Origin: Hyphomonadaceae bacterium TMED5
GTDB lineage: Bacteria > Pseudomonadota > Alphaproteobacteria > Caulobacterales > Hyphomonadaceae
Assembly (NCBI GenBank): GCA_002173095.1
Contig: NHBK01000008.1
Coordinates: forward strand, 310,001-374,000
DNA length: 64,000 bases
Direction: 5' to 3'
The position numbers were made by a program, and so were the translations under genes. The notes under the pieces were generated by a model that was not told the DNA's origin, ran no database searches, and was given only the letters and a program-made list of their open reading frames with translations. Numbering within the stretch: position 1 is the first letter of the stretch; each line of letters starts with the position of its first letter. Of this stretch, positions 10,767 through 22,545 are shown in pieces.

Positions 10767-13121
10767 TTAGTTCACCGGAGCCTTTTCATCAGAACCTGGC
10801 GTTTCGCCATCGTCCTCAATCGTTTCTTCCGTCGGTTCTGGTTTTGGAGCCGCAAAATACTCAAAGGTCAGCGCGCCAGCGCCATTTTCAGCTTCGGCAT
10901 CCAGATCAACTTTCACCGCGCCGCCGTATTTCAGATCACCAAAGAGCAGCTCTTCCGCCATAGGCTTTTTGAGGTGTTCCTGAATGACGCGAGACAGCGG
11001 ACGTGCACCATAATCCGGGTCAAAGCCCTTCTTACCGAGCCAGCCTTTCGCCGCATCCGTCATTTCGATCGTCACGTTACGGTCAGACAGTTGCGCTTCG
11101 AGCTGAAGAACGAATTTCTCAACAACGCGCTCAATGATTGGCTGAGACAGACCCGCAAACGGAATGGTCGCATCCAGACGGTTGCGGAATTCCGGCGTGA
11201 ACAGCTTCTTGATCGCCTCATCGTCCTCGCCTTCGCGCTTACCGCGACCGAAGCCGATAGAGTTTTTAGCCGCTTCAGACGCGCCCGCATTGGTCGTCAT
11301 AATCAGAATGACATTGCGGAAGTCGATCTTCTTACCGTTAGAGTCGGTCAGCGTACCGTTATCCATCACCTGCAGGAGGATGTTGAACAGTTCCGGGTGC
11401 GCTTTCTCGATTTCGTCGAGCAGCAGGACACAATGTGGATGCTGGTCGACACCGTCTGTCAGAAGACCGCCCTGATCATAGCCCACATATCCCGGAGGCG
11501 CGCCGATCAGGCGAGACACAGTGTGTCGTTCCATGTATTCGGACATGTCAAAGCGCAGGAGTTCAACGCCCATTATGGACGAGAGCTGGCGAGCAACTTC
11601 TGTTTTACCAACACCGGTAGGACCGGAGAACAGATAACAGCCAATTGGCTTGTTTGGTTCACGCAGACCTGCACGAGCCAGTTTGATGGCAGAAGAGAGC
11701 GCATCAATAGCATTGTCCTGACCGTAAACGACCCGTTTCAGATCGAGCTCAAGCCCTTTCAGAGCTTCAGCATCGGTCTTCGTAACCTGCTTGGACGGGA
11801 TGCGCGCAATCTTCGCGACAACGGCCTCAATGGTTTCCACATCGATGACCTTTTTGCGCTCATCTTCCGGCAGCAGCCACTGACTTGCACCCGCTTCGTC
11901 GATAACGTCGATCGCCTTATCCGGCAGCTTACGGTCCGTAATATAGCGCGCAGACAGCTCTACAGCTGTTTTAATCGCTTCATCAGAATATTTGATGCCG
12001 TGGAATTCTTCGAAATGCGGACGCAGACCTTTGAGGATCTTGATCGCATCCGGAACCGTTGGCTCAACCACGTCAATTTTCTGGAAACGACGCGCCAAAG
12101 CGCGGTCTTTTTCAAAGTGCTGACGATACTCCTTGAAGGTTGTGGAGCCCATGCAACGCAGACCACCGCTCTGAAGCGCAGGCTTCAGAAGGTTAGACGC
12201 ATCCATTGCGCCGCCAGAGGTCGCGCCGGCACCGATAACCGTGTGAATTTCGTCGATGAACAGGACAGCTTTTTCCTGACCTTCCAGCTCTTTCATCACG
12301 GCTTTGAGGCGTTCCTCAAAATCACCGCGATAGCGCGTGCCCGCAAGCAGAGCGCCCATATCGAGCGAGTAGATCACCGCATCCTTCAGGATTTCAGGGG
12401 CTTCGCCGTCAACAATACGTTTGGCGAGGCCTTCTGCGATCGCTGTTTTACCAACGCCCGGATCACCCACCAGAAGCGGGTTATTCTTACGACGGCGGCA
12501 CAGCACCTGAATGGAACGCTCGACTTCCAGCTGACGACCAATAAGCGGGTCGATCTTGCCTTCGCGAGCCTTCTGATTGAGGTCTACGCAATACGCGTCC
12601 AGCGCTTCGTTTTGCGCCTTTTGAACTTCTTCCTCTTTCTCCCCCGTCGGACGGGTCGGGCGCGGCTTGGACATACCAGGCTTTTTCGCCACACCGTGAG
12701 AAATGAAGTTCACGGCGTCATAGCGGGTCATGTCCTGCTCTTGCAGGAAGTAAGCCGCATGGCTTTCACGCTCAGAGAAAATTGAGACGAGAACGTTTGC
12801 GCCCGTCACTTCATCGCGACCGGAGCTTTCAACATGCAGGATTGCGCGCTGTACGACACGCTGGAATGCAGCGGTCGGGCGCACCTGATCGTCAAGCTCG
12901 TCCACGGCGAGGTTGGACAAATCATCATCAATATAGTCGGTCAGGTCGTCCTGGAGCTTTTCCAGATCAACCTTACAGGCCGACATCACTTCGATGGCGT
13001 CTTCATCATCTGTCAGAGCGAGCAGAAGATGTTCCAGGGTCGCGTACTCGTGATGGCGCTCAGCCGCCAGGGCGAGAGCTTTTTCGAGGGCGCGTTCGAG
13101 GCTGGGAGTCAATGATGGCAT
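10767..13121 (-). CDS. clpA: ATP-dependent Clp protease ATP-binding subunit ClpA
   Basis: Hexameric AAA+ unfoldase that feeds proteins to ClpP, including ClpS-delivered N-degron substrates. Order: two N-terminal Clp repeats (residues 1-145), first AAA+ module with Walker A GDPGVGKT (219-226) and [19 protein letters not shown], second AAA+ module with GPTGVGKT at about 510 and [13 protein letters not shown], and a C-terminal D2-small domain. It lacks the long coiled-coil middle domain of ClpB, so it is ClpA. The acidic tail ([15 protein letters not shown]) is longer than in enterobacteria. Preceded by clpS nine bases upstream, forming the standard clpS-clpA operon. Confidence 0.97.
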
Positions 13122-13130
13122 AGTTGGCCT

Positions 13131-13523
13131 CTAATCTTCTTTTTCCATTGTACACTGCAGCGGGTGTTCATTCCGCCGCGCGAGATCCAGCACCTGTGCG
13201 ACTTTTGTTTCCGCCACTTCAAAGGTGAAAACGCCACACACCCCGACTCCATGATTATGCACATGTAGCATAATTTCAGTCGCCTGTTCGCGGGACTTGT
13301 TAAAGTACCGCTCCAGAACATACACGACGAATTCCATCGGCGTGTAATCATCATTCAACAGCAGCACACGATACATGCTTGGTCGCTTCGTACGTGTGCG
13401 TGCCCGCGTTGCTATGCCCGTTCCCGGATCATCGCCATTCGTTTTGTCGCCCCCCTCCTCATCACTCATCATCGGAGTGAAAAGTACGCGCGGGTCCGAA
13501 AGTATGAAATCCTTGTCGGTCAT
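13131..13523 (-). CDS. clpS: ClpS adaptor protein
   Basis: Adaptor that binds N-terminal Leu, Phe, Tyr or Trp of substrates and hands them to ClpA. The core [24 protein letters not shown], then [13 protein letters not shown] and a C-terminal [10 protein letters not shown], is canonical. The start is uncertain: ATG at 13523 has AGGA just upstream (short spacing) and gives 130 residues; ATG at 13472 gives 113, the usual family length, but lacks a ribosome binding site; the frame is open to 13598. Operon partner of clpA. The window also encodes Bpt, which creates the leucine N-degrons ClpS reads. Confidence 0.95.
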
Positions 13524-13581
13524 GTATCCTAGATAATGTTCTATTTCTGTATCCAAAGCCTGAAGGTAAAATTTCTGCGGT

Positions 13582-14010
13582 TCAAGCATTTTTGACATTC
13601 TGACTCAGCAGATCCAGCCATTGCGCAACACGTTTGCGATTGGTGCCCAGATCAGAATATCCAATGCGCGATCGGGAAAAGACTATCACTCCGGACGTGT
13701 TTTCCCCAAACGGCACAACCTCGATATCCACATCATCTTTAAACCCCAGCACTGCCGTACGTGCGACAAAGCTAGCCCGAAGGCTTTCAATATCCACTGA
13801 CATGCATTCAACGCGAGACAGTTCTGCCCATAAGGCAACCGCTGTTTCGAACAGTTCCTTGGCTGGCATGTCATATACCGGAGAATGTTCGTCGACACTG
13901 GCAGCCGTTTCAACGCCAGACGGCGCAAAAAAAGCTGAGTTCGGCTTAGACGAACGGTGAGCTGAAGTAAGAGAATCCGCAGAGACCATAATCCGAAAAT
14001 AGGAACTCAT
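13582..14010 (-). CDS. DUF1499 domain protein
   Basis: Function unknown. The C-terminal half carries the DUF1499 signature: [13 protein letters not shown] followed by [17 protein letters not shown]. The first 40 residues are low in conservation and polar, with no signal peptide. An ATG at 13989 is an alternative start; the longer reading to 14046 would start inside the phasin terminator and is rejected. If the longest clpS frame were used the genes would overlap by 17 bases, so the two may be cotranscribed. Confidence 0.75.
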
Positions 14011-14031
14011 TCTGCAGAAACAATCTACAAC

Positions 14032-14060
14032 AAAAAAAGCCGGCACTATGGCCGGCTTTT
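14032..14060 (-). terminator. Phasin terminator
   Basis: Perfect 10-bp stem AAAAGCCGGC (14035-14044) / GCCGGCTTTT (14051-14060), 6-base loop. On the minus strand seven T in a row follow, 25 bases past the phasin stop. Confidence 0.9.
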
Positions 14061-14084
14061 AGAACTGTGATGAGCAGACGCTGA

Positions 14085-14525
14085 TTAAGCGGATTTCTGC
14101 ATGATGGAAACGAACTGGCCAGCCTGAGTATTCAGCGGCGCAGAGGCTTCGCGAACGAGTGACGCGAACATGCCGGTCATTGCGTTCAGTTCTTCCAGAT
14201 ACGCTTCGAAAGCGGTCTTGGTGTAGCTTGCCTGAAGCTCCATAGCTTCCTGAACAGACTGAGCGCTGGACATAGATTTAGCAGCTTCAACGCCTTTTTC
14301 GAAAGCTTCGCGGGAGAAGGACGCAGCGCGCGTGCTCAGCTCTTCAACACCTTTGGTGGTGATGCGAGACGATTCAGCAACCGCTTCCATGTTCTTCTTC
14401 TGAAGGTCACCCATCTCGCCCATCATTTCCATGGAGCGATCATATGACTTCTTCATTGTATCATTTGCAGTCGTAGAGAACGTTTCGAATGCAGTTTCAA
14501 AAGTTTTTGCAGCAGATGTGGCCAT
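14085..14525 (-). CDS. Phasin family protein
   Basis: Granule-associated protein that coats polyhydroxyalkanoate inclusions. The 146 residues from MATSAAKTFETAFETF are almost wholly amphipathic helix, rich in Ala, Glu, Lys, Met and Ser and free of Cys and Trp, as in the Phasin_2 family (GVEELSTRAASFSREAFEKG is typical, given here in part at about residues 60-79). The start at 14525 is chosen because AAAGGA lies nine bases upstream; a longer frame to 14570 has no such site. Single gene with its own terminator and two TGC-N-GCA palindromes upstream, consistent with PhaR autoregulated control. No phaC or phaR is in the window. Confidence 0.85.
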   Translation of the reverse strand: MATSAAKTFETAFETFSTTANDTMKKSYDRSMEMMGEMGDLQKKNMEAVAESSRITTKGVEELSTRAASFSREAFEKGVEAAKSMSSAQSVQEAMELQASYTKTAFEAYLEELNAMTGMFASLVREASAPLNTQAGQFVSIMQKSA

Positions 14526-14578
14526 TGGGGTTGTCCTTTGCCGTCTGGGAATGTTTGGCTTAGATAACACCTGTCGTG

Positions 14579-14610
14579 TGCAATTGCAACATTTTTTGTG
14601 CGGTGCACAA
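14579..14610. promoter_or_regulatory. Two TGC-N3/4-GCA palindromes, possible PhaR operators
   Basis: TGCAATTGCA at 14579-14588 and TTGTGC-GGT-GCACAA at 14596-14610 sit 54-85 bases upstream of the phasin start. Both contain the core TGC-N(3-4)-GCA, which I recall as the recognition pattern of the PHA-granule-responsive repressor PhaR in Rhodobacter. The palindromes are seen directly; the assignment to PhaR is inference. Confidence 0.5.
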
Positions 14611-14737
14611 TTTATTCGGCGGTATAGTTAATGAGAAATTCCACAATATCCGTGAGATAAAGGTAGAATCGCATTTCCCTATTAACTTTTAAGCAATCCA
14701 ACCCACGCAAACTCAGGCTTTCTTAGAAGGAGCTTGC

Positions 14738-15703
14738 TTGAATATGGTCACGTCACTTCCAAGAGTTGATTTCAAGTTTTTTTTCGCGTTCGCGCTCCTC
14801 GCACTTGCAGCGCTGATCCTTACCCCGACATCGCGCGCTGATGATCGTTATGCCAGTATCGTGATCGATATGGGGTCTGGTCAGGTTCTTCATGACCGCT
14901 TTGCGGATTCGCCTCGCTATCCCGCATCGCTGACGAAGGTCATGACACTCTATATGGTTTTTGACGCCCTCGAAGAAGGCGAGCTCACACTGGACGAAGA
15001 ACTGCCGGTATCCCGTGCAGCCTCTCAGGCTCCTCCGTCCCGTCTGGGACTTTCGCCTGGCGACACAATCACAGTGCAGGATGCTGTTCTCGCGCTGGTG
15101 ACCAAGTCTGCAAATGATGTCGCCCGCGTGATCGCAGAACGTCTTGGCGGCTCTGAATCCCGTTTCGCAGCACTGATGACCGTTCAGGCCCGCGCCCTCG
15201 GCATGCAGGACACACGCTTCTATAACGCGTCTGGCCTTCCTGATGCCCGTCAGGTGTCTACAGCGCGCGATCTTGCGACACTTGCTCAGCGCATGATGGA
15301 AGATCACCCGGAGCAATATGCCGTATTCGCGACTGAAAATTTCTCATATCGCGGTGGCAACTATCGCAACCATAACCGCCTGCTTGGCGTCGTTCCGGGC
15401 GTAGACGGCATTAAAACCGGCTATACCCGCGCATCTGGTTACAATCTGATGGCGACGGCTGAGCGCGAAGGGAACCGCGTCATTGCCGTTATGCTGGGCG
15501 GCGCAACCTCCCGCGCCCGCAATGCACACGTCACCGACCTGCTGGAAGCGGCTTTCGCTGCGATTGAACTGACAGGCCCAGCTGAACCAGACCTGCGGAC
15601 ACGCCTTGCATTTCAGGCCATTCAATTCCCGGAAGATGGCAATACCGTCACCGCGCTCGCAAACACATTACAGCTGGAACAAGGCTCTGCCGGCGGCGAA
15701 TAG
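14738..15703 (+). CDS. D-alanyl-D-alanine carboxypeptidase (S11 family)
   Basis: Low-molecular-mass penicillin-binding protein that trims the terminal D-Ala from peptidoglycan stems in the periplasm. A hydrophobic signal peptide ends near TSRADDRY (about residue 34). The three active-site motifs are S64-L-T-K67, S124-A-N126 and K226-T-G228. Downstream of KTG it is short (321 residues in total) and lacks the C-terminal beta domain and membrane anchor of E. coli DacA, so it may be soluble. TTG at 14738 is five bases from the strong AGAAGGAG; ATG at 14744 is the alternative. Own terminator follows. Confidence 0.9.
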   Translation: MNMVTSLPRVDFKFFFAFALLALAALILTPTSRADDRYASIVIDMGSGQVLHDRFADSPRYPASLTKVMTLYMVFDALEEGELTLDEELPVSRAASQAPPSRLGLSPGDTITVQDAVLALVTKSANDVARVIAERLGGSESRFAALMTVQARALGMQDTRFYNASGLPDARQVSTARDLATLAQRMMEDHPEQYAVFATENFSYRGGNYRNHNRLLGVVPGVDGIKTGYTRASGYNLMATAEREGNRVIAVMLGGATSRARNAHVTDLLEAAFAAIELTGPAEPDLRTRLAFQAIQFPEDGNTVTALANTLQLEQGSAGGE

Positions 15704-15728
15704 CCAGCGCCTTTCCTTCTTAAGAAAA

Positions 15729-15762
15729 TAAAACCGGAGGCATGCTTGCTTCCGGTTTTTTT
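15729..15762 (+). terminator. Terminator of the carboxypeptidase gene
   Basis: AAAACCGGA (15730-15738) pairs with TCCGGTTTT (15751-15759); a run of T follows on the plus strand. It lies 26 bases after the stop. Confidence 0.85.
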
Positions 15763-15853
15763 GTGTCTGACATTCCGGTGAGCAAACTACGGGGAAGACT
15801 CGCCATAGTGCAGGAGTCACGGCATGCTTTGCGCCAAAAGGCGGAGCGATTCG

Positions 15854-18253
15854 ATGCCAGACACACAAGAAATCCGTTCAGACGGTTCAGAGACACTCCT
15901 TCAGGCCGCAGTTTCACTTCTGTCTCGCGACCCGGAATTTGATGCACACTGCATCAGCGAGTCTCCCGAGTGGGCAGAATATGTTTCTGCGCTATCAGCG
16001 ATAGACCTCACTGATACAGCGCGATCGGACTTGCTGTCAGCTATTCAGAACCGCATCCTGACCCCTCTGGCGGCAACTGAGATGGTTCTTCTGAACTCAG
16101 GCGCGCCCACTGGCACACTTTCCGCGCCAGAACTCGATCAGATCATCTCCGACCGTCTGGCAAAATCACTTCAGGCCGACCTCCTGCGCACTGCGGCGTA
16201 TGACCTTGAAACCCTGGGCCCTGCTCCGCGCGATCCTGAACTCGCTGAGGCGCTTCAACAGGGTATGAGCATTGACCTTCTGGAGCGCGCCCTCGCCCAC
16301 CCGGAAGGCATTCGCGGCGCCGTGAGCGCATTACAAACTGCGATGAATGAGGCAGAGTTTTCCGAAACGCCCTGTCTGGCCGTGACAGAAAGCTCTCCTG
16401 AACTCTTGTCTGAGCTGGACCGCTATCTTCAATCCGGAAACGAAGTTTTGCTGAGCGACGATGGTCCGTTTGCGCTCACGCCAGATGTCGCAATCGCGCT
16501 CAACCTGTCGGCCTGTATTGTAAATAATGGTCTGGATATCGCTCTGGCTGATCGCGGCCTGCGTGCAGCGTCCGCTCTTCTTGGCGCGCTCGACATTCAG
16601 GACGCGCAAATTGTCGTAACCGGACTGGGTGACGCTCTGGTGAAAATGCCAGCTGCCAGCGAAGCCGACCAGAAACATACCGCGCAAAGCCTCGTCTCCG
16701 ACCTGAAAAACCTCGCTGAGACGATCGCAAGTGATACAGGTCTGGACCTTCCTCTTTCGGCAAACCTTGTGTCTCCCGGCTGCATTCAGCATTTCGGCTG
16801 CCTCAGCAACGGCACTAACCGTCCGGTCCTGAACACATCCGCTGCCACGCTGACGCCTTCTGAAATCGAATTGTTCCGAGAAGCTGTTGCCAGCAAGAAC
16901 CCTGCTCTGCTGCCCGCTTATGAACGCATTCTTTCACGGCTTTACACGCTTGAGGGCGCACCGGGCGTTGATAGCGCAAGGCTGCAGGCTCGAGGTCTGT
17001 CAGACAGCACGCTGGAACTCATTGAAGATCATCTCAGCGAAGGCCTGACATTGACGCAGGCAACCTCTCGCTGGATCCTTGGCGATGAGATCATTCTGAA
17101 AGAACTTAAACTCCCTCAGGAGCTTTTGAACGAGGAAGACCCATCCTTATTGAAGAGCATGGGCTTTTCGCGCAAAGACATTGAAACTGCTGAAGAATAT
17201 CTAAAATCAGGCATAGCGCGCGACCTTGCCCCGCTTCTTAGTCAGGCCGGGCTTCGCATTGCGCATACCGCGTTGGAAGAAACCGCATTTGCAAGCGATC
17301 TGGCCAGGAGCCTGACCGATATATCCTTCGGCTATGTGCTGGATTTCTCCAACGCACCATCTTCGGAAGAATTGTCCGCCATTGTTTCTGGCGTGCTGGA
17401 AACTGGCAATCTGAATGTTTCACTCGCCAGCAGCGCAAGCGCACGACGCGAAACAGCCGCCCGACGCATCAATTCGGTTCTGGAACTGGTTGAGGATGCC
17501 CGCGAAGCTGAAGAGTCCTACCGCGTCGATGCCGAGCCTGCTTATGAACCGCAACCGGCTCAGGCCAGCTATGCTCCAACTCAGGGCGAAGCCGACAGGT
17601 CACGCCGCTTCCGTCTTCCAGACCGCCGCAAAGGCTATATTCAGAAGGCGACTGTGGGCGGACACAAAGTCTATCTGCACACGGGTGAGTTCGATAATGG
17701 CGAACTGGGCGAAATCTTCATCGACATGCACAAAGAAGGCGCGGCCTTCCGCTCTCTGATGAACAATTTTGCCATCGCGATTTCGATCGGCCTTCAGTAC
17801 GGCGTGCCATTGGAAGAGTTTGTGGAAGCCTTTGTCTATACGCGTTTCGACCCTGCGGGCGACGTCACGGGCAATGACTCGATTAAACGCGCCACATCTA
17901 TTCTGGATTATATTTTCCGCGAGCTGGCTGTGTCCTATCTCGGCCGTGAAGACCTCGCAGAATTGTCAGAAGGTCAGTCGCATGACGGTCTGGGACGCGG
18001 CATGAAGGATGACGTCTTCCAATTCCCGGCCGAAGCTGCACAGATCGTGTCCAAAGGCTTTAGCCGCGGCCAGCTGCCAGACAATATCGTTATTCTGGAT
18101 AAGCGCCGTAAGACTGCAGAAGAAGCAGAAGAGACCGAAAACTATCTCGGCGACCCCTGCCCGTCCTGCGGTCACTTCACGCTGGTTTCAGACGGCGATG
18201 ACGTCATCTGCGAAGCGTGTGGCACAAAGGCAGAAGACAATCAGACACACTGA
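15854..18253 (+). CDS. Degenerate NrdJ-like protein with intact B12-RNR C-terminal domain
   Basis: The last 210 residues are an almost standard C-terminal domain of adenosylcobalamin-dependent ribonucleotide reductase: [39 protein letters not shown] and [19 protein letters not shown], ending in a zinc-ribbon with C769/C772 and C786/C789. Upstream, residues about 363-380 ([17 protein letters not shown]) and later segments ([20 protein letters not shown]) still resemble NrdJ as I remember it. The first 360 residues are acidic, helical and unrecognisable; no substrate-radical cysteine set or barrel motif can be seen. NrdJ proteins are about 1200 residues, this one 799. ATG 15854 has GGAG eight bases upstream; ATG 15824 is less likely. 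Catalysis is doubtful; a regulatory or accessory role is possible. Confidence 0.75.
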
Positions 18254-18303
18254 TTGTCTTCTGATCGTCTGGACTAGCTAACGCCCCCTCTGCCATGACC
18301 ACG

Positions 18304-18335
18304 AAAAAGCCCGCCATGCCGGGGCATGACGGGCT
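18304..18335 (-). terminator. Terminator of the MarR-type gene
   Basis: Thirteen-pair stem with one mismatch between 18308-18320 and 18323-18335 (AGCCCG-CATGCC type). On the minus strand five T follow. No T-run on the plus strand, so it serves only the MarR gene. Confidence 0.82.
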
Positions 18336-18388
18336 GAATTCGGCTCATCAAATGGGCGTCGGATCGTTAAAACGACCCAACAGCACGA

Positions 18389-18901
18389 TTAGAGGCGGTA
18401 ACGGATCTGGTCAGACCAGAAACGCTCAAGACGTGTTGCTGTGCGATTGAACGCATCAAGATCAGCTGGACGAACGCTTGCAGTTGGCTCAAGCGCATGG
18501 GCCTGACGCTCAAACAGAGCTGCAACTTGTTTACGGACATCCTGACCAGCAGGCGTAAGTTTCAGGCGGACCGTGCGACGGTCATCAGAGCTACGGGTCT
18601 GAACCAGATAGCCACCTTCCTGAAGTTTTTTCACATTGTACGACATAGACGTACCGGCAAAGGCGCCGCGTGCACGCAGTGCAGACGCAGGAGTTTCGCC
18701 ATCACCAATTTCATAAAGCAGAAGCGCCTGGACACCTGTCATAGAACGCTCACCTGAACGCTCAAGGTCATCCTTAACAACATCATGTAGACGACGATGG
18801 ACCTGCTCTAACAGAGACAGGCTTTTCAGGAAGGTTTCTCCTACCGTCGCACCCGCGAAATCATTCTGGCTTTTTGCCTCGATCATCATCACAACACCCA
18901 T
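18389..18901 (-). CDS. MarR family winged-helix regulator, LdtR-like
   Basis: Dimeric transcription regulator. The winged helix spans about residues 45-135: MTGVQALLLYEIGDGETPAS, the recognition helix SMSYNVKKLQEGGYL and the wing RSSDDRRTVRLKLT. The segment LKSLSLLEQVHRRLHDVVKDDLER and the SYNVKKL helix recall the LdtR group, which in Liberibacter and Sinorhizobium controls an L,D-transpeptidase and stress tolerance. The target here is unknown. Monocistronic, with its own terminator and a perfect TTAA-N7-TTAA site about 76-90 bases upstream of the start, suggesting cell-cycle control. Confidence 0.85.
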   Translation of the reverse strand: MGVVMMIEAKSQNDFAGATVGETFLKSLSLLEQVHRRLHDVVKDDLERSGERSMTGVQALLLYEIGDGETPASALRARGAFAGTSMSYNVKKLQEGGYLVQTRSSDDRRTVRLKLTPAGQDVRKQVAALFERQAHALEPTASVRPADLDAFNRTATRLERFWSDQIRYRL

Positions 18902-18976
18902 TCAATTTTTGTTTGGTTTTGATGGGTTTTACATGAGCTATGCTAAGAAATCGCTAATCACGAATCAGGTCTAAAG

Positions 18977-18991
18977 TTAACAGCTCATTAA
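18977..18991. promoter_or_regulatory. Perfect CtrA-type site TTAA-N7-TTAA
   Basis: TTAACAGCTCATTAA at 18977-18991 matches the Caulobacter CtrA consensus exactly, in the 144-base gap upstream of the LdtR-like gene (minus strand) and downstream of the acyl-CoA hydrolase gene. Its only sensible promoter target is the MarR-type gene. Confidence 0.55.
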
Positions 18992-19045
18992 ATTACTTGC
19001 TGTGGTGGTAAAAATACTCAAGAATCTGTACCAAAGCGAAACACT

Positions 19046-20113
19046 CTACTGCAGGCTCAGTTCGTTCTCAGAAATTGTCGAAAAAATTTCATTTAATTGA
19101 TTTTCTGAGACGCTCTCCAGATTCCGCGATGGCCATAAAGGTTTGTGGTCTTTGTCGATGATCACCGCACGCACACCCTCATGGAAATCCGGGTCACGCA
19201 CCTGACGCCATGCAATGCGGTATTCCATCTTCATATTCTCACCGAAATCGGTCATGGCCGCACCTTCTCGAAGCTGTCTATGCGCGATCTTCAAGGTCAG
19301 CGGAGACCGTTCAGACAGAATTTTGATCTGAGCCAACGCCCAGTCAGACCCGTCTGCCTCAAGTCGTTCCATAATCTCTTCAACGCTGTCACCTGCAAAA
19401 CAATGGTTCAGCGTCTTCAGATCATCGGCAAGGAAATGTCCCACCACAGGCTTTCGACGTGGCCCGATAATGCTTTCCAGCATTTGTGGGGCTTCAAATG
19501 TGAAGTCAGCCGATTCAATCTGCGCCACAAGATTTCGCACCAGCTCTACGGGCACATAGTCTGTCGCGACGCCGATCAGCTTAACATCACTCCCGCGGAC
19601 ACGTGCGCCGGTGAGCGCCAGCCACATGCCAATCTCTCCCTTCAGGCGCGGCAGGAACCAGCCCCCACCCACATCAGGGAACAGACCAATACCGCATTCC
19701 GGCATAGCAAAGAGCGTGTTCTCCGTCGCAATCCTATGGCTTCCGTGAACCGAGATGCCGACCCCGCCCCCCATGGTGACGCCATCCATTATAGAGACAT
19801 ACGGCTTAGGGAAGCGTTTGATCAGCGCATTCAGGCGATACTCTGCCGCCAGAAATTTCATCACATCCACGCCATCGCCCTGCCCGGAGGCAGCCATCAT
19901 GCGAATATCACCGCCCGCGCAAAAGCCGCGCGTATCGCGCGCATGATCAACCAATACAAGCCCGATACGATCGTCATTTTCCCAGGACTTCAGCGCCTCA
20001 TACATGGCGAGGCACATCTCTTCGGTCAGCGCATGCAACGCTTCTGGCCGATTTAGTGTTATGCGGCCCACACTTCCTGACGTGCGAATAATCACCGAAG
20101 ACGTTTCAGACAT
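19046..20113 (-). CDS. 3-hydroxyisobutyryl-CoA hydrolase (crotonase fold)
   Basis: Crotonase-superfamily enzyme; most likely hydrolyses 3-hydroxyisobutyryl-CoA in valine breakdown. The oxyanion-hole segments are GFCAGGDIRMM and MGGGVGISVHGSHRIA, and FAMPECGIGLFPDVGGGWFLPRL carries the glutamate and the PDVGG stretch that marks hydrolases of this type rather than enoyl-CoA hydratases. The length (about 355) also fits the hydrolase branch. Start: ATG 20113 has AGGG close upstream; ATG 20131 is the alternative. Single gene, with a 3-hydroxyacid dehydrogenase-like gene of possibly related pathway only 5 kb away, not adjacent. Confidence 0.85.
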   Translation of the reverse strand: MSETSSVIIRTSGSVGRITLNRPEALHALTEEMCLAMYEALKSWENDDRIGLVLVDHARDTRGFCAGGDIRMMAASGQGDGVDVMKFLAAEYRLNALIKRFPKPYVSIMDGVTMGGGVGISVHGSHRIATENTLFAMPECGIGLFPDVGGGWFLPRLKGEIGMWLALTGARVRGSDVKLIGVATDYVPVELVRNLVAQIESADFTFEAPQMLESIIGPRRKPVVGHFLADDLKTLNHCFAGDSVEEIMERLEADGSDWALAQIKILSERSPLTLKIAHRQLREGAAMTDFGENMKMEYRIAWRQVRDPDFHEGVRAVIIDKDHKPLWPSRNLESVSENQLNEIFSTISENELSLQ

Positions 20114-20245
20114 ATACCCTACCATTGTCACCCACCAGCCACGATCAACACCAATCGACGTGGCAGATTCATATCCGAATTGAATTTCAGGAGTGATTGA
20201 ACCAAGGTGACGCTAAGGTCAACGTGGGGACGACTGAGACGATCT

Positions 20246-20860
20246 ATGGATTTACTGGCCGACAAAATCCTCCTACGCCCTGCGCGCATTGAAGAAATTC
20301 CCGTGCTGCAGGATATTGATCTTGCCGCGTCAGCCCTTTTTGAACCAACCGGCCTCATTGATGAAGGCCCGGATGGCCCACAGCCCATACCGGAAAAAAA
20401 TCTCGCGGAAGGCATTAAGAGCCGCAATCTGACACTCGCAGAGTTCACGCCGGAGAACCGCCCCGTTGGGTTTGCGCTATGCAGACAGGTCCGTCCGGAT
20501 TTGTATCTCGATCAGATATCGGTCCACCCTGAATTTGGACGTCGCGGCCTTGGCGCAAGGCTTTTAAATGCCGTCATCAGCCATGGCGATGCGCTATCCC
20601 TGCGCGGCGTTGTCCTGTCCACATTTCGGGACCTTAAATGGAACGGCCCATTCTATGCCGCGCATGGGTTTGAAGAAATCCCGCGCGACCAGATGAAAAC
20701 ATGGATGTTTGACCTGGAAGCGCTACAGGCGGAAAGCATGGATGTGAGCCTGCGCTGTTTCATGCGTCGTCCGGGCAAGGCACACAAAAACTGGCTCCGT
20801 CTGCGCAAACGTGATCAGGGGCGCGACGAAAAACGCATTGCGACACACTCTGATTCATGA
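20246..20860 (+). CDS. GNAT family N-acetyltransferase
   Basis: Acetyl-CoA-dependent acyltransferase of unknown substrate. The acetyl-CoA-binding motif A is DQISVHPEFGRRGLGARLL (residues about 90-108), followed by LSTFRDLKWNGPFYAAHGFEEI, typical of GNAT motif B. The C-terminal 40 residues are basic (RRPGKAHKNWLRLRKRDQGR). An upstream in-frame GTG at 20207 would extend it by 13 residues without a better ribosome binding site. Its end overlaps the hemB start by four bases. Confidence 0.82.
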   Translation: MDLLADKILLRPARIEEIPVLQDIDLAASALFEPTGLIDEGPDGPQPIPEKNLAEGIKSRNLTLAEFTPENRPVGFALCRQVRPDLYLDQISVHPEFGRRGLGARLLNAVISHGDALSLRGVVLSTFRDLKWNGPFYAAHGFEEIPRDQMKTWMFDLEALQAESMDVSLRCFMRRPGKAHKNWLRLRKRDQGRDEKRIATHSDS

Positions 20861-21876
20861 AAACTGCGCGCATGACTCAGATCGTACCTTCAAAATTCCC
20901 GCTCACCCGTATGCGCCGCAACCGTCAGTCCGACTGGAGCCGCCGCCTCACCCGCGAGACGTCGCTGACCACGGATGATCTGGTCTGGGCGCTGATTGTA
21001 CATGATGGCGAAGATCCACGTATTCCGGTCAAATCCATGCCGGGCGTCGACCGCCTCAATATTGATGAAGCCGTGAAGGCAGCAAAGCGCGCTAAAGAGC
21101 TGGGCATTCCTGCCCTCGCGCTCTTCCCGCATATCGACCCGTCTAAAAAGGATGATGTCGGTAGCGAAGCGCTAAATCATACCGGTTTTGTGCCAAACGT
21201 CATTCGCGCCATCAAAGAGGCCGTACCAGAGATTGGCGTCATGTGTGATGTCGCGCTCGACCCATTCACCACGCATGGCCATGACGGCGTGATGAATGAA
21301 AAGAACCAGATTGACAATGACGCCACGCTGGAAAAGCTGGTTCAGCAAAGCCTCGTTCAGGCAGCTGCAGGCGTCGATGTCATCGCTCCGTCTGATATGA
21401 TGGATGGCCGTATCGGCGCCATTCGCGAAGCATTGGAAGCTGGCGGATACAAAGACACGATGATCATGTCGTACTCCGCAAAATATGCGAGCTGCTTCTA
21501 CGGCCCATATCGCGACGCGGTTGGCTCCGGCGCTGTGCTGACAGGCGACAAGAAAACCTATCAAATGGATTTCGGAAATACCGATGAGGCTCTGCGTGAA
21601 ACCGCGCTCGACCTCTCTGAAGGGGCGGACATGGTCATGGTAAAACCGGGCCTGCCCTATCTGGATATCCTCTATCGCGTGTCATCCACCTTCAATGTGC
21701 CGACACTCGTCTTCCAGATTTCCGGCGAGTATGGGCAAATCAAGCTCGCCTCCCGTGAAGGCTGGCTTGATGAAGACAAAGCCATTCTGGAAACGCTTTC
21801 CAGCTTTAAGCGCGCAGGTGCAGACGGCATTGTTACCTATTTCGCAGAGCGCGCAGCAGAGCTTCTGAACGGCTAA
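20857..21876 (+). CDS. hemB: Porphobilinogen synthase (delta-aminolevulinic acid dehydratase)
   Basis: Condenses two 5-aminolevulinate molecules to porphobilinogen in haem and cobalamin synthesis. Both Schiff-base lysines are placed in recognisable segments: MSYSAKYASCFYGPYRDA and MVMVKPGLPYLDI. The metal-site segment reads DVALDPFTTHGHDG, with Asp in place of the zinc-binding cysteines, so this is the magnesium-type enzyme common in alphaproteobacteria and Pseudomonas. The 339 residues include an N-terminal arm (TRMRRNRQSDWSRRL) used in octamer assembly. Overlaps the preceding acetyltransferase gene. Confidence 0.97.
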   Translation: MKTARMTQIVPSKFPLTRMRRNRQSDWSRRLTRETSLTTDDLVWALIVHDGEDPRIPVKSMPGVDRLNIDEAVKAAKRAKELGIPALALFPHIDPSKKDDVGSEALNHTGFVPNVIRAIKEAVPEIGVMCDVALDPFTTHGHDGVMNEKNQIDNDATLEKLVQQSLVQAAAGVDVIAPSDMMDGRIGAIREALEAGGYKDTMIMSYSAKYASCFYGPYRDAVGSGAVLTGDKKTYQMDFGNTDEALRETALDLSEGADMVMVKPGLPYLDILYRVSSTFNVPTLVFQISGEYGQIKLASREGWLDEDKAILETLSSFKRAGADGIVTYFAERAAELLNG

Positions 21877-21879
21877 GGC

Positions 21880-22545
21880 ATGACAGATTTAACGGATTTC
21901 CCACCTCGCCCTCTTCCGGGCGAGGCTATTCTGTCGGGTCGGCTTGTGCGCCTCGAACCATGGAATAAAGATGTTCACGGCGAAGGCATGGCTGCCATTC
22001 TGGCTGGCCCGGACCATGCCCATACCTGGACATTCATGCCTTTCGACTTTCCCGACGTTGCTGACTTTCCGGAAACCTTCACAGCGCGCAGTGCGAAACA
22101 GGGCTGGGCGAGCTATGCTATTCTGGACGCCGCCACGGGCCACCCGCTTGGCATGGCCAGCTATATGCGCCAACGCCCTGAACATGGCAGCCTGGAAGTC
22201 GGATGCGTCGCTTTCAGCGCACAGCTAAAACGTACCGCACATGCAACAGAAGCCATGTATCTGATGGCGGCACATATTTTCGAAGATCTGAAATACCGAC
22301 GCTATGAATGGAAGTGCCATAATGAAAATGGCGCCTCCAAAAAAGCTGCAGAACGGCTGGGCTTTCAGTTCGAAGGCGTCTTTCGCAATGACATGGTCAT
22401 GAAGGGCAAAAACCGCGACACTGCATGGTTTGCCATCACAGATGATGACTGGCCCGCTCTCAAGGCCTCGTTTCAAAGCTGGCTGGCGCCCGAAAACTTC
22501 GATGAAAACGGTCAGCAATTGCGCCGGATATCAGACTTTCGCTGA
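21880..22545 (+). CDS. GNAT acetyltransferase, RimJ/RimL type
   Basis: Likely protein- or small-molecule N-acetyltransferase of the Acetyltransf_3 group. SGRLVRLEPW at the N-terminus, GMASYMRQRPEHGSLEVG, and the C-terminal NENGASKKAAERLGFQFEGVFR (shown in part) are the RimL-type hallmarks. The 221 residues fit yeast YgfF/YIR042-like homologues. Begins four bases after hemB and ends 18 bases before the convergent acuI gene; the small gap holds no clear terminator. Confidence 0.83.
   Translation: MTDLTDFPPRPLPGEAILSGRLVRLEPWNKDVHGEGMAAILAGPDHAHTWTFMPFDFPDVADFPETFTARSAKQGWASYAILDAATGHPLGMASYMRQRPEHGSLEVGCVAFSAQLKRTAHATEAMYLMAAHIFEDLKYRRYEWKCHNENGASKKAAERLGFQFEGVFRNDMVMKGKNRDTAWFAITDDDWPALKASFQSWLAPENFDENGQQLRRISDFR

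Follow-up and report, generated by a model that had tools for sequence, protein, structure and literature searches.

Pseudo-NrdJ, a widespread descendant of B12-dependent ribonucleotide reductase that lacks the tested catalytic motifs and keeps a strongly conserved TSCPD tail

The window, that is the whole stretch of 64,000 nucleotides that was analysed, carries a gene that we call pseudo-nrdJ (Table 1), whose product is about 400 residues shorter than the long alphaproteobacterial NrdJ. The first-pass annotation had described it as a B12-dependent ribonucleotide reductase (RNR) descendant without a catalytic core, with an intact frame and a good ribosome binding site. Both of the latter features were confirmed on the forward strand, where the frame runs uninterrupted from either of two candidate start codons (ATG 15824 or 15854) to the stop at 18253 and GGAG stands ahead of each. 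The terminator that was said to precede the gene is less secure: a terminator-like hairpin is present, but three such sites in the region compare with 2.9 in shuffled sequence, which makes it weak evidence. Sampled bacterial families are numbered here as f1, f2 and so on. In family f1, the regions ahead of the gene carry more copies of the GANTC motif seen before the window gene than shuffles lead one to expect (43 sites vs. 19.5 expected, 35 genes); in family f2 they do not (16 vs. 22.2 expected, 44 genes). An RNA family or B12 riboswitch was rejected, as window positions 13000-22000 gave no Rfam match over the gathering scores.

Table 1. Coordinates of pseudo-nrdJ and of associated features in the window.
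Feature	Position	Strand	Remarks
Terminator-like hairpin with T run	15730-15759	+	upstream of pseudo-nrdJ
Two GANTC sites	15797..15818	+	directly upstream of first ATG
pseudo-nrdJ gene	15854..18253	+	799 aa plus stop; alternative ATG 15824 gives 809 aa
Eroded NrdJ body, residues 1-580	15854..17593	+	tested catalytic motifs absent
TSCPD domain region, from residue 581	17594..17970	+	nearly identical to genuine NrdJ; strong purifying selection
Zinc ribbon	18158..18220	+	cysteines 769, 772, 786 and 789 kept; two redox-shuttle cysteines absent

Genomes of the window's own family contain intact homologues of similar length, which argues that the window gene is not a damaged copy. Frameshift, assembly damage and pseudogene formation were rejected, since the frame and the relatives are intact and dN/dS is low. 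The counter-case named beforehand, a damaged nrdJ that is the only copy in its genome, therefore holds only in part: the locus is the only NrdJ-derived one found, but its frame is not broken. In the genome of origin (99.05% complete), profile searches gave no other NrdJ-type match and no NrdJ core. TIGR02504 matched just one other RNR frame, of 650 aa and below the cut-off, which is a class I NrdA (NF006577, 1026 bits vs. 620). The second full-length nrdJ, whose presence the annotation had proposed to check, was thus not found, and class I NrdA was found instead.

The only Pfam domain above its cut-off in the window protein is TSCPD (PF12637, residues 597-692, 44.2 bits vs. a gathering cut-off of 22.8). 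The model of long NrdJ, NF005736 (1222 positions), matches in three stretches, the best at residues 581-759, and the score of 321.6 bits leaves the whole protein far below the curated cut-off of 1737 for class II RNR (NrdJ, PRK07562). Common ancestry with NrdJ extends over body and tail. Residues of about 363-470 are still close to NrdJ, and in global-mode hhalign, where the score comes largely from the tail, the middle segments follow the NrdJ order, as had been noticed for residues from about 363 onwards. Moreover, a profile built from 71 of the shortened homologues, hereafter short forms, matched the solved NrdJ chain 7b9q (925 aa) with an E-value of 7.7e-51; its positions 94-590 align to residues 266-909 of 7b9q, with no matching residues at the NPCSE loop. 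Much of the part described as unrecognisable, the first 360 residues and the active-site regions, is therefore a recognisable eroded NrdJ barrel at the level of the family profile, although none of the tested catalytic motifs is present. The extent of erosion varies, as the body alignable to genuine NrdJ comprises 125 residues in the window protein, 115 in a Caulobacter body and 633 in a Maricaulis body.

For the core we used five patterns that we take to represent the catalytic motifs and their roles, an NPCSE-type finger-loop motif among them. None of the five occurs in the window protein, nor in any of the 92 short forms read by pattern. These include two duplicates (L086 and L089, of L057 and L059) and three proteins truncated at the end of a contig (L080, L087 and L100). 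The 58 genuine long NrdJ proteins each have at least four of the five; L103, L107 and L119 were set aside in this count. The truncated L087 is also the one row of the count without the zinc ribbon. The description in the first-pass annotation is supported to the extent of an intact NrdJ descendant with a dead core, a conserved tail and a clade of relatives. The finger loop is described as carrying the thiyl-radical cysteine in class II RNR in the accessible text of PMC9669993. As judged from its sequence, the window protein is most likely unable to reduce ribonucleotides, since the finger-loop cysteine motif, the other tested core motifs and the electron-shuttle pair are all missing. One locus at a contig edge of a Brevundimonas MAG (L103) joins genuine core motifs to a short-form tail and is probably an assembly chimera, or else an intermediate.

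In the tail alignment (compiled without 12 loci and five rows lacking the pattern), all four zinc cysteines are present in 88/88 short tails and in 55/55 genuine tails, and cysteines at the two redox positions occur in none of the 88 short tails vs. all 55 genuine ones. The window protein accordingly has four cysteines of the six-cysteine C-terminal array of class II RNR. Eighty columns that are at least 90% conserved hold the identical residue in short and genuine tails, and 65 TSCPD columns conserved to at least 90% share the same residue among short forms, genuine NrdJ and the tails of the more distant family f102. The description of the C-terminus as a near-perfect NrdJ tail therefore applies to the TSCPD domain and the zinc cysteines, but not to the redox pair. 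In S. nassauensis NrdJ, Cys-920, 923, 936 and 939 are proposed as zinc ligands, three of which were supported by a zinc measurement, and the redox pair is proposed to consist of Cys-933 and 945 (PMC5704485, accessible part). The window tail alone matched no solved chain up to an E-value of 1. Long class II C-termini are described as an IscU-like domain plus a zinc finger, and, according to the accessible part of that paper, the IscU-like domain has had no role ascribed to it (PMC9669993). The TSCPD region, likened to this domain by position alone, is probably the same.

Selection acts differently along the protein. Among 17 pairs of short forms, dN/dS was 0-0.05 (maximum 0.051) over the 110 codons of TSCPD and 0.07-0.36 over the body; ten pairs of genuine NrdJ gave 0-0.07 and 0.08-0.20, respectively, and in each of the ten the constraint on TSCPD exceeded that on the body. 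Estimates are rough for the several pairs in which dS is greater than 1. TSCPD is about as constrained in the short forms as in the enzyme. Two proteins of the window's own genus (L003 and L009) have bodies that are 39% identical, and their 110 TSCPD residues are identical. Neither a broken frame nor neutral evolution, as would characterise a pseudogene, is seen with a body dN/dS of up to 0.36 and a TSCPD value of up to 0.051. The purifying selection on the body means that it may also work, and tail conservation could come in part from a slowly evolving fold.

A match to the family was found in 57 of 61 genomes (the own genome and 60 relatives), with only a weak one in G007 (E 2.3e-4). Frames of 755-1056 aa occur in f1, f2 and f3 and frames of 1196-1272 aa in f5, while f4 has some of either class. 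A hand count of 150 genomes of the order, classed from model coverage rather than gene-by-gene reading and with some frames ending at contig edges, gave 106 genomes with the short form only (31/31 f1, 27/30 f2, 30/30 f3, 18/29 f4), 35 with a full-length long NrdJ (30/30 f5, 5/29 f4) and nine with neither (three of f2, six of f4). The curated cut-off was exceeded by 29 of the 35 full-length proteins, and G162 was the only genome of this draw with a stop inside its listed best short-form match. In a separate draw of f2, which is Caulobacteraceae, 54 of 60 genomes matched; Caulobacter, Phenylobacterium and Brevundimonas are among its loci. Maricaulis, Marinicauda, Hyphomonas and Hyphomonadaceae loci carry short forms, and Robiginitomaculum and Euryhalocaulis loci carry genuine long NrdJ, L107 being a broken or partial frame. 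The homologues thus make up a short-form family that spans f1, f2, f3 and part of f4. Judged by the number of matches listed, genomes with the full-length form seem to contain one NrdJ plus NrdA-like pieces, so that the two long forms do not seem to coexist in any of them.

The surroundings of the gene bear on its origin. In flanks of, as a rule, 1.5-4 kb, with some genomes entered twice, tblastn detected an NDUFA12 gene beside the short form in 26/36 rows of f1, 34/54 of f2, 5/5 of f3 and 3/3 of f4, and beside genuine nrdJ in 2/6 rows of f5, 0/4 of f4 and 18/50 others, most of which belong to other orders. The short form is flanked by a pentapeptide-repeat gene in 25/36 (f1), 44/54 (f2), 5/5 (f3) and 2/3 (f4) rows and the genuine gene in 4/4 rows of f4, 5/6 of f5 and 0/50 others. 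Neighbours common to dead and genuine nrdJ fit decay in place rather than a separate paralogue. The search located neither gene within the 64-kb window, nor at the seven loci of its own genus, which implies that the window's copy has moved or that its surroundings have changed. As clues to function the conserved neighbours were rejected, because genuine NrdJ has them too and the own genus lacks them. The pentapeptide-repeat protein looks secreted, and across much of the order its gene lies downstream of the locus in the same orientation (e.g., L088, L105, L042), after genuine and dead nrdJ alike. YjgF/RidA-family genes lie downstream in the two other lineages checked.

A tail tree of 140 rows, drawn without 15 loci (duplicates, contig-edge pieces and L103) and without five genuine rows that the pattern missed, requires two changes and places three genuine rows of f4 among the short forms. 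When the short forms were constrained to one clade, the log-likelihood was 9.7 higher (p-AU 0.677). The simplest reading of these tail sequences would be a single origin of the short forms in the order.

Tails without a core are not confined to this order. In the class, 139 of 240 genomes exceed the long-NrdJ cut-off, and nine of 16 chosen lower-scoring genomes have a tail match. Eight of the nine, from six families (f154, f13, f102, f45, f31 and f104), carry the tail without core motifs and show no NrdJ core over the TIGR02504 cut-off; in the ninth, G277, a tail of the genuine type lies at the edge of a contig, and this genome was left uncounted. One of the genomes concerned, G254, has a second RNR-like frame of 738 aa below that cut-off. 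The motif-less descendants elsewhere include L222 (G254), L223 (G430), L164 (G222), L168 and L169 (G371, G240) and L224 (G313). The proteins of f102, f31, f104 and f45 lack the zinc ribbon, which places it outside the minimal conserved module, and the tails of f31 and f104 are themselves diverged (E about 1e-28 to 1e-30). A frame of the reverse kind, 959 aa in length and covering positions 1-944 of the long-NrdJ model with the tail missing, was seen at G307:C6:91738-94566.

Family f102, which with its small genomes and AT-rich DNA looks like SAR11-type ocean bacteria, has a tail-only protein of about 274 aa in 61 of 64 genomes, the other three having no tail match. The tail is kept in genomes of 1.0-1.5 Mb, with a TSCPD dN/dS of 0-0.03 in eight pairs. 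In its sister family f157, the tail occurs in 48/53 genomes, mostly inside frames of 1180-1218 aa. In one draw of 58 genomes, an NrdJ core over the cut-off was present in 29/30 f157 genomes, for which the match counts leave no NrdA match, and 28/28 f102 genomes had NrdA-like matches only; the two families thus show a switch of RNR class inside a single order. The f102 protein is made up of a strongly conserved N-terminus of 52 residues plus an NrdJ-type TSCPD (L166, L174-L203). This N-terminus was rejected as a clue to a fusion partner, as it has matches in one of 190 genomes of the class, itself of f102. At L166, the tail-only gene adjoins a gene for an aspartyl-type class II tRNA synthetase.

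Erosion has reached different stages in different families, which suggests separate losses: the dead body of G254 still aligns to genuine NrdJ over 946 residues at 37% identity and that of G430 over 346 residues at 26%. A tail tree of 75 rows (no frame was obtained by pattern for L220, L221 and L167) needs six changes. In clade tests that left out the very long-branched or diverged L224, L168 and L169, and for which a quick tree needs five changes, all dead tails as one clade gave a p-AU of 0.157, and the order together with f102 as one clade had a log-likelihood 6.5 higher. The tail trees may thus also be compatible with one origin plus transfer.

The explanation that we favour, and consider rather probable, is that pseudo-NrdJ is an nrdJ which decayed in place while class I NrdAB served the cell, and whose tail was kept as a non-redox docking or oligomerisation module. 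It takes in the computed loss of the motifs, the loss of exactly the redox cysteines, the selection on the tail, its wide retention and its recurrence in other families. With deoxynucleotides supplied by class I NrdAB, the long alphaproteobacterial nrdJ could decay where it stood; ribonucleotide reduction would go with the catalytic motifs and the electron-shuttle pair, and the TSCPD (IscU-like) domain with its structural zinc ribbon would stay. The remaining tail would dock to a cellular partner that the tails of genuine NrdJ also bind, and the inactive protein would have a role apart from dNTP synthesis. The missing redox pair speaks against a delivery of electrons along the known route, and we judge docking or oligomerisation to be the most likely remaining role of the tail. 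Its nearly unchanged retention in most sampled relatives suggests a second job that has not yet been described. This function would be dispensable or replaceable in some bacteria, since nine of 150 genomes have neither form and three of 64 f102 genomes have no tail match. We give about even chances to the wider reading that the TSCPD of alphaproteobacterial NrdJ has an important non-RNR function, exerted already in the genuine enzyme, and was repeatedly kept after a switch to class I, whether still attached to a dead body (as in Caulobacteraceae, Hyphomonadaceae, Maricaulaceae and others) or by itself (SAR11-like f102).

Among known systems, the long alphaproteobacterial NrdJ (NF005736/PRK07562; 7b9q) shares the ancestry of body and tail, a nearly identical tail and, in many genomes, the gene neighbours, but it possesses the tested catalytic motifs and the redox pair and is about 400 residues longer. 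In Pseudomonas aeruginosa, whose class II enzyme is split, NrdJb likewise represents an NrdJ tail encoded apart from the active core; its main function is given as disulfide exchange for NrdJa (accessible part of PMC4520616), whereas the short form lacks the shuttle cysteines. With the redox pair in 0/88 short tails and no NrdJa-type partner found in the own genome (99.05% complete), an electron-delivering NrdJb-like subunit was rejected. The C-terminal domain of S. nassauensis NrdJd has the same cysteine order around the zinc site and is linked to oligomerisation, but it uses six cysteines and transfers electrons, compared with four cysteines in the short form (PMC5704485, as far as accessible).

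The main rival, which we regard as unlikely, is that the short form regulates class I RNR, its tail or the whole protein joining NrdA/NrdB, tuning their oligomeric state or activity and so replacing a missing ATP-cone. Searches of the window's genome yielded no other RNR than class I NrdA, and no ATP-cone was detected in an NrdA- or NrdB-sized frame at an E-value up to 0.001 in 61 genomes; the single ATP-cone match lies in a frame of 127-193 aa, the size of NrdR, in 60 of them, with none in G007. Furthermore, the NrdJ C-terminal domain takes part in the higher oligomers induced by dATP/dGTP in S. nassauensis, according to the available part of PMC5704485. However, cone-less NrdA occurs also in relatives with genuine NrdJ, and four of the nine genomes with neither form were searched (G037, G051, G055, G059) and have an NrdA-like match. 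In addition, an NrdR-box-like site with three mismatches stands at the own nrdA, and the short gene has none better than six. In a crude scan, which used a single consensus and took every frame from its first ATG, sites with up to four mismatches preceded 2/87 short genes vs. 9/56 genuine genes, a weak hint that the short gene has left the RNR regulon.

A sensor of nucleotides or cobalamin that works through the eroded body seems less likely still; the annotation had also imagined a sensing protein of this kind. The body keeps recognisable NrdJ segments under the purifying selection described above, but f102 and f13 have the tail without any NrdJ body, and in L003 and L009 it is the bodies that diverge while TSCPD is unchanged. 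Modulation of genuine NrdJ, or competition for its reductant, was the role first suggested and is now very improbable. The tail does resemble NrdJ tails, and seven of the 61 genomes contain a short form plus a separate NrdJ over the cut-off; such a role is therefore not general, and in the own genome there is no NrdJ core to modulate among the profile matches. Competition for thioredoxin finds no support either, as no aligned short form retains the redox cysteines, so that competition for a reductant through them is not possible, and the S. nassauensis enzyme is described as showing no interaction with thioredoxin or glutaredoxin (PMC5704485, accessible part). A decaying pseudogene or chance persistence, suggested by the eroded core and by the nine genomes with neither form, is hardly credible given 106 of 150 genomes with short-form matches and an internal stop in only one, dN/dS values well below 1 and a tail retained in the reduced genomes of f102.

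A literature search, with subscription papers mostly outside its reach, yielded no publication about a family of catalytically dead NrdJ proteins and nothing on the essentiality of Caulobacter CCNA_01966. This gene is listed as NrdJ in the nucleotide reduction pathway (PMC6538847, accessible part), a label that differs from what the Caulobacter loci lead us to expect: L083, L088 and L093 are all short forms, so CCNA_01966 is probably a short form too. Genes of these families that are labelled as B12-dependent RNR, probably including CCNA_01966, should not be counted as evidence of B12-dependent nucleotide reduction. The dead NrdJ descendants constitute a natural experiment that separates the TSCPD domain from the enzyme.
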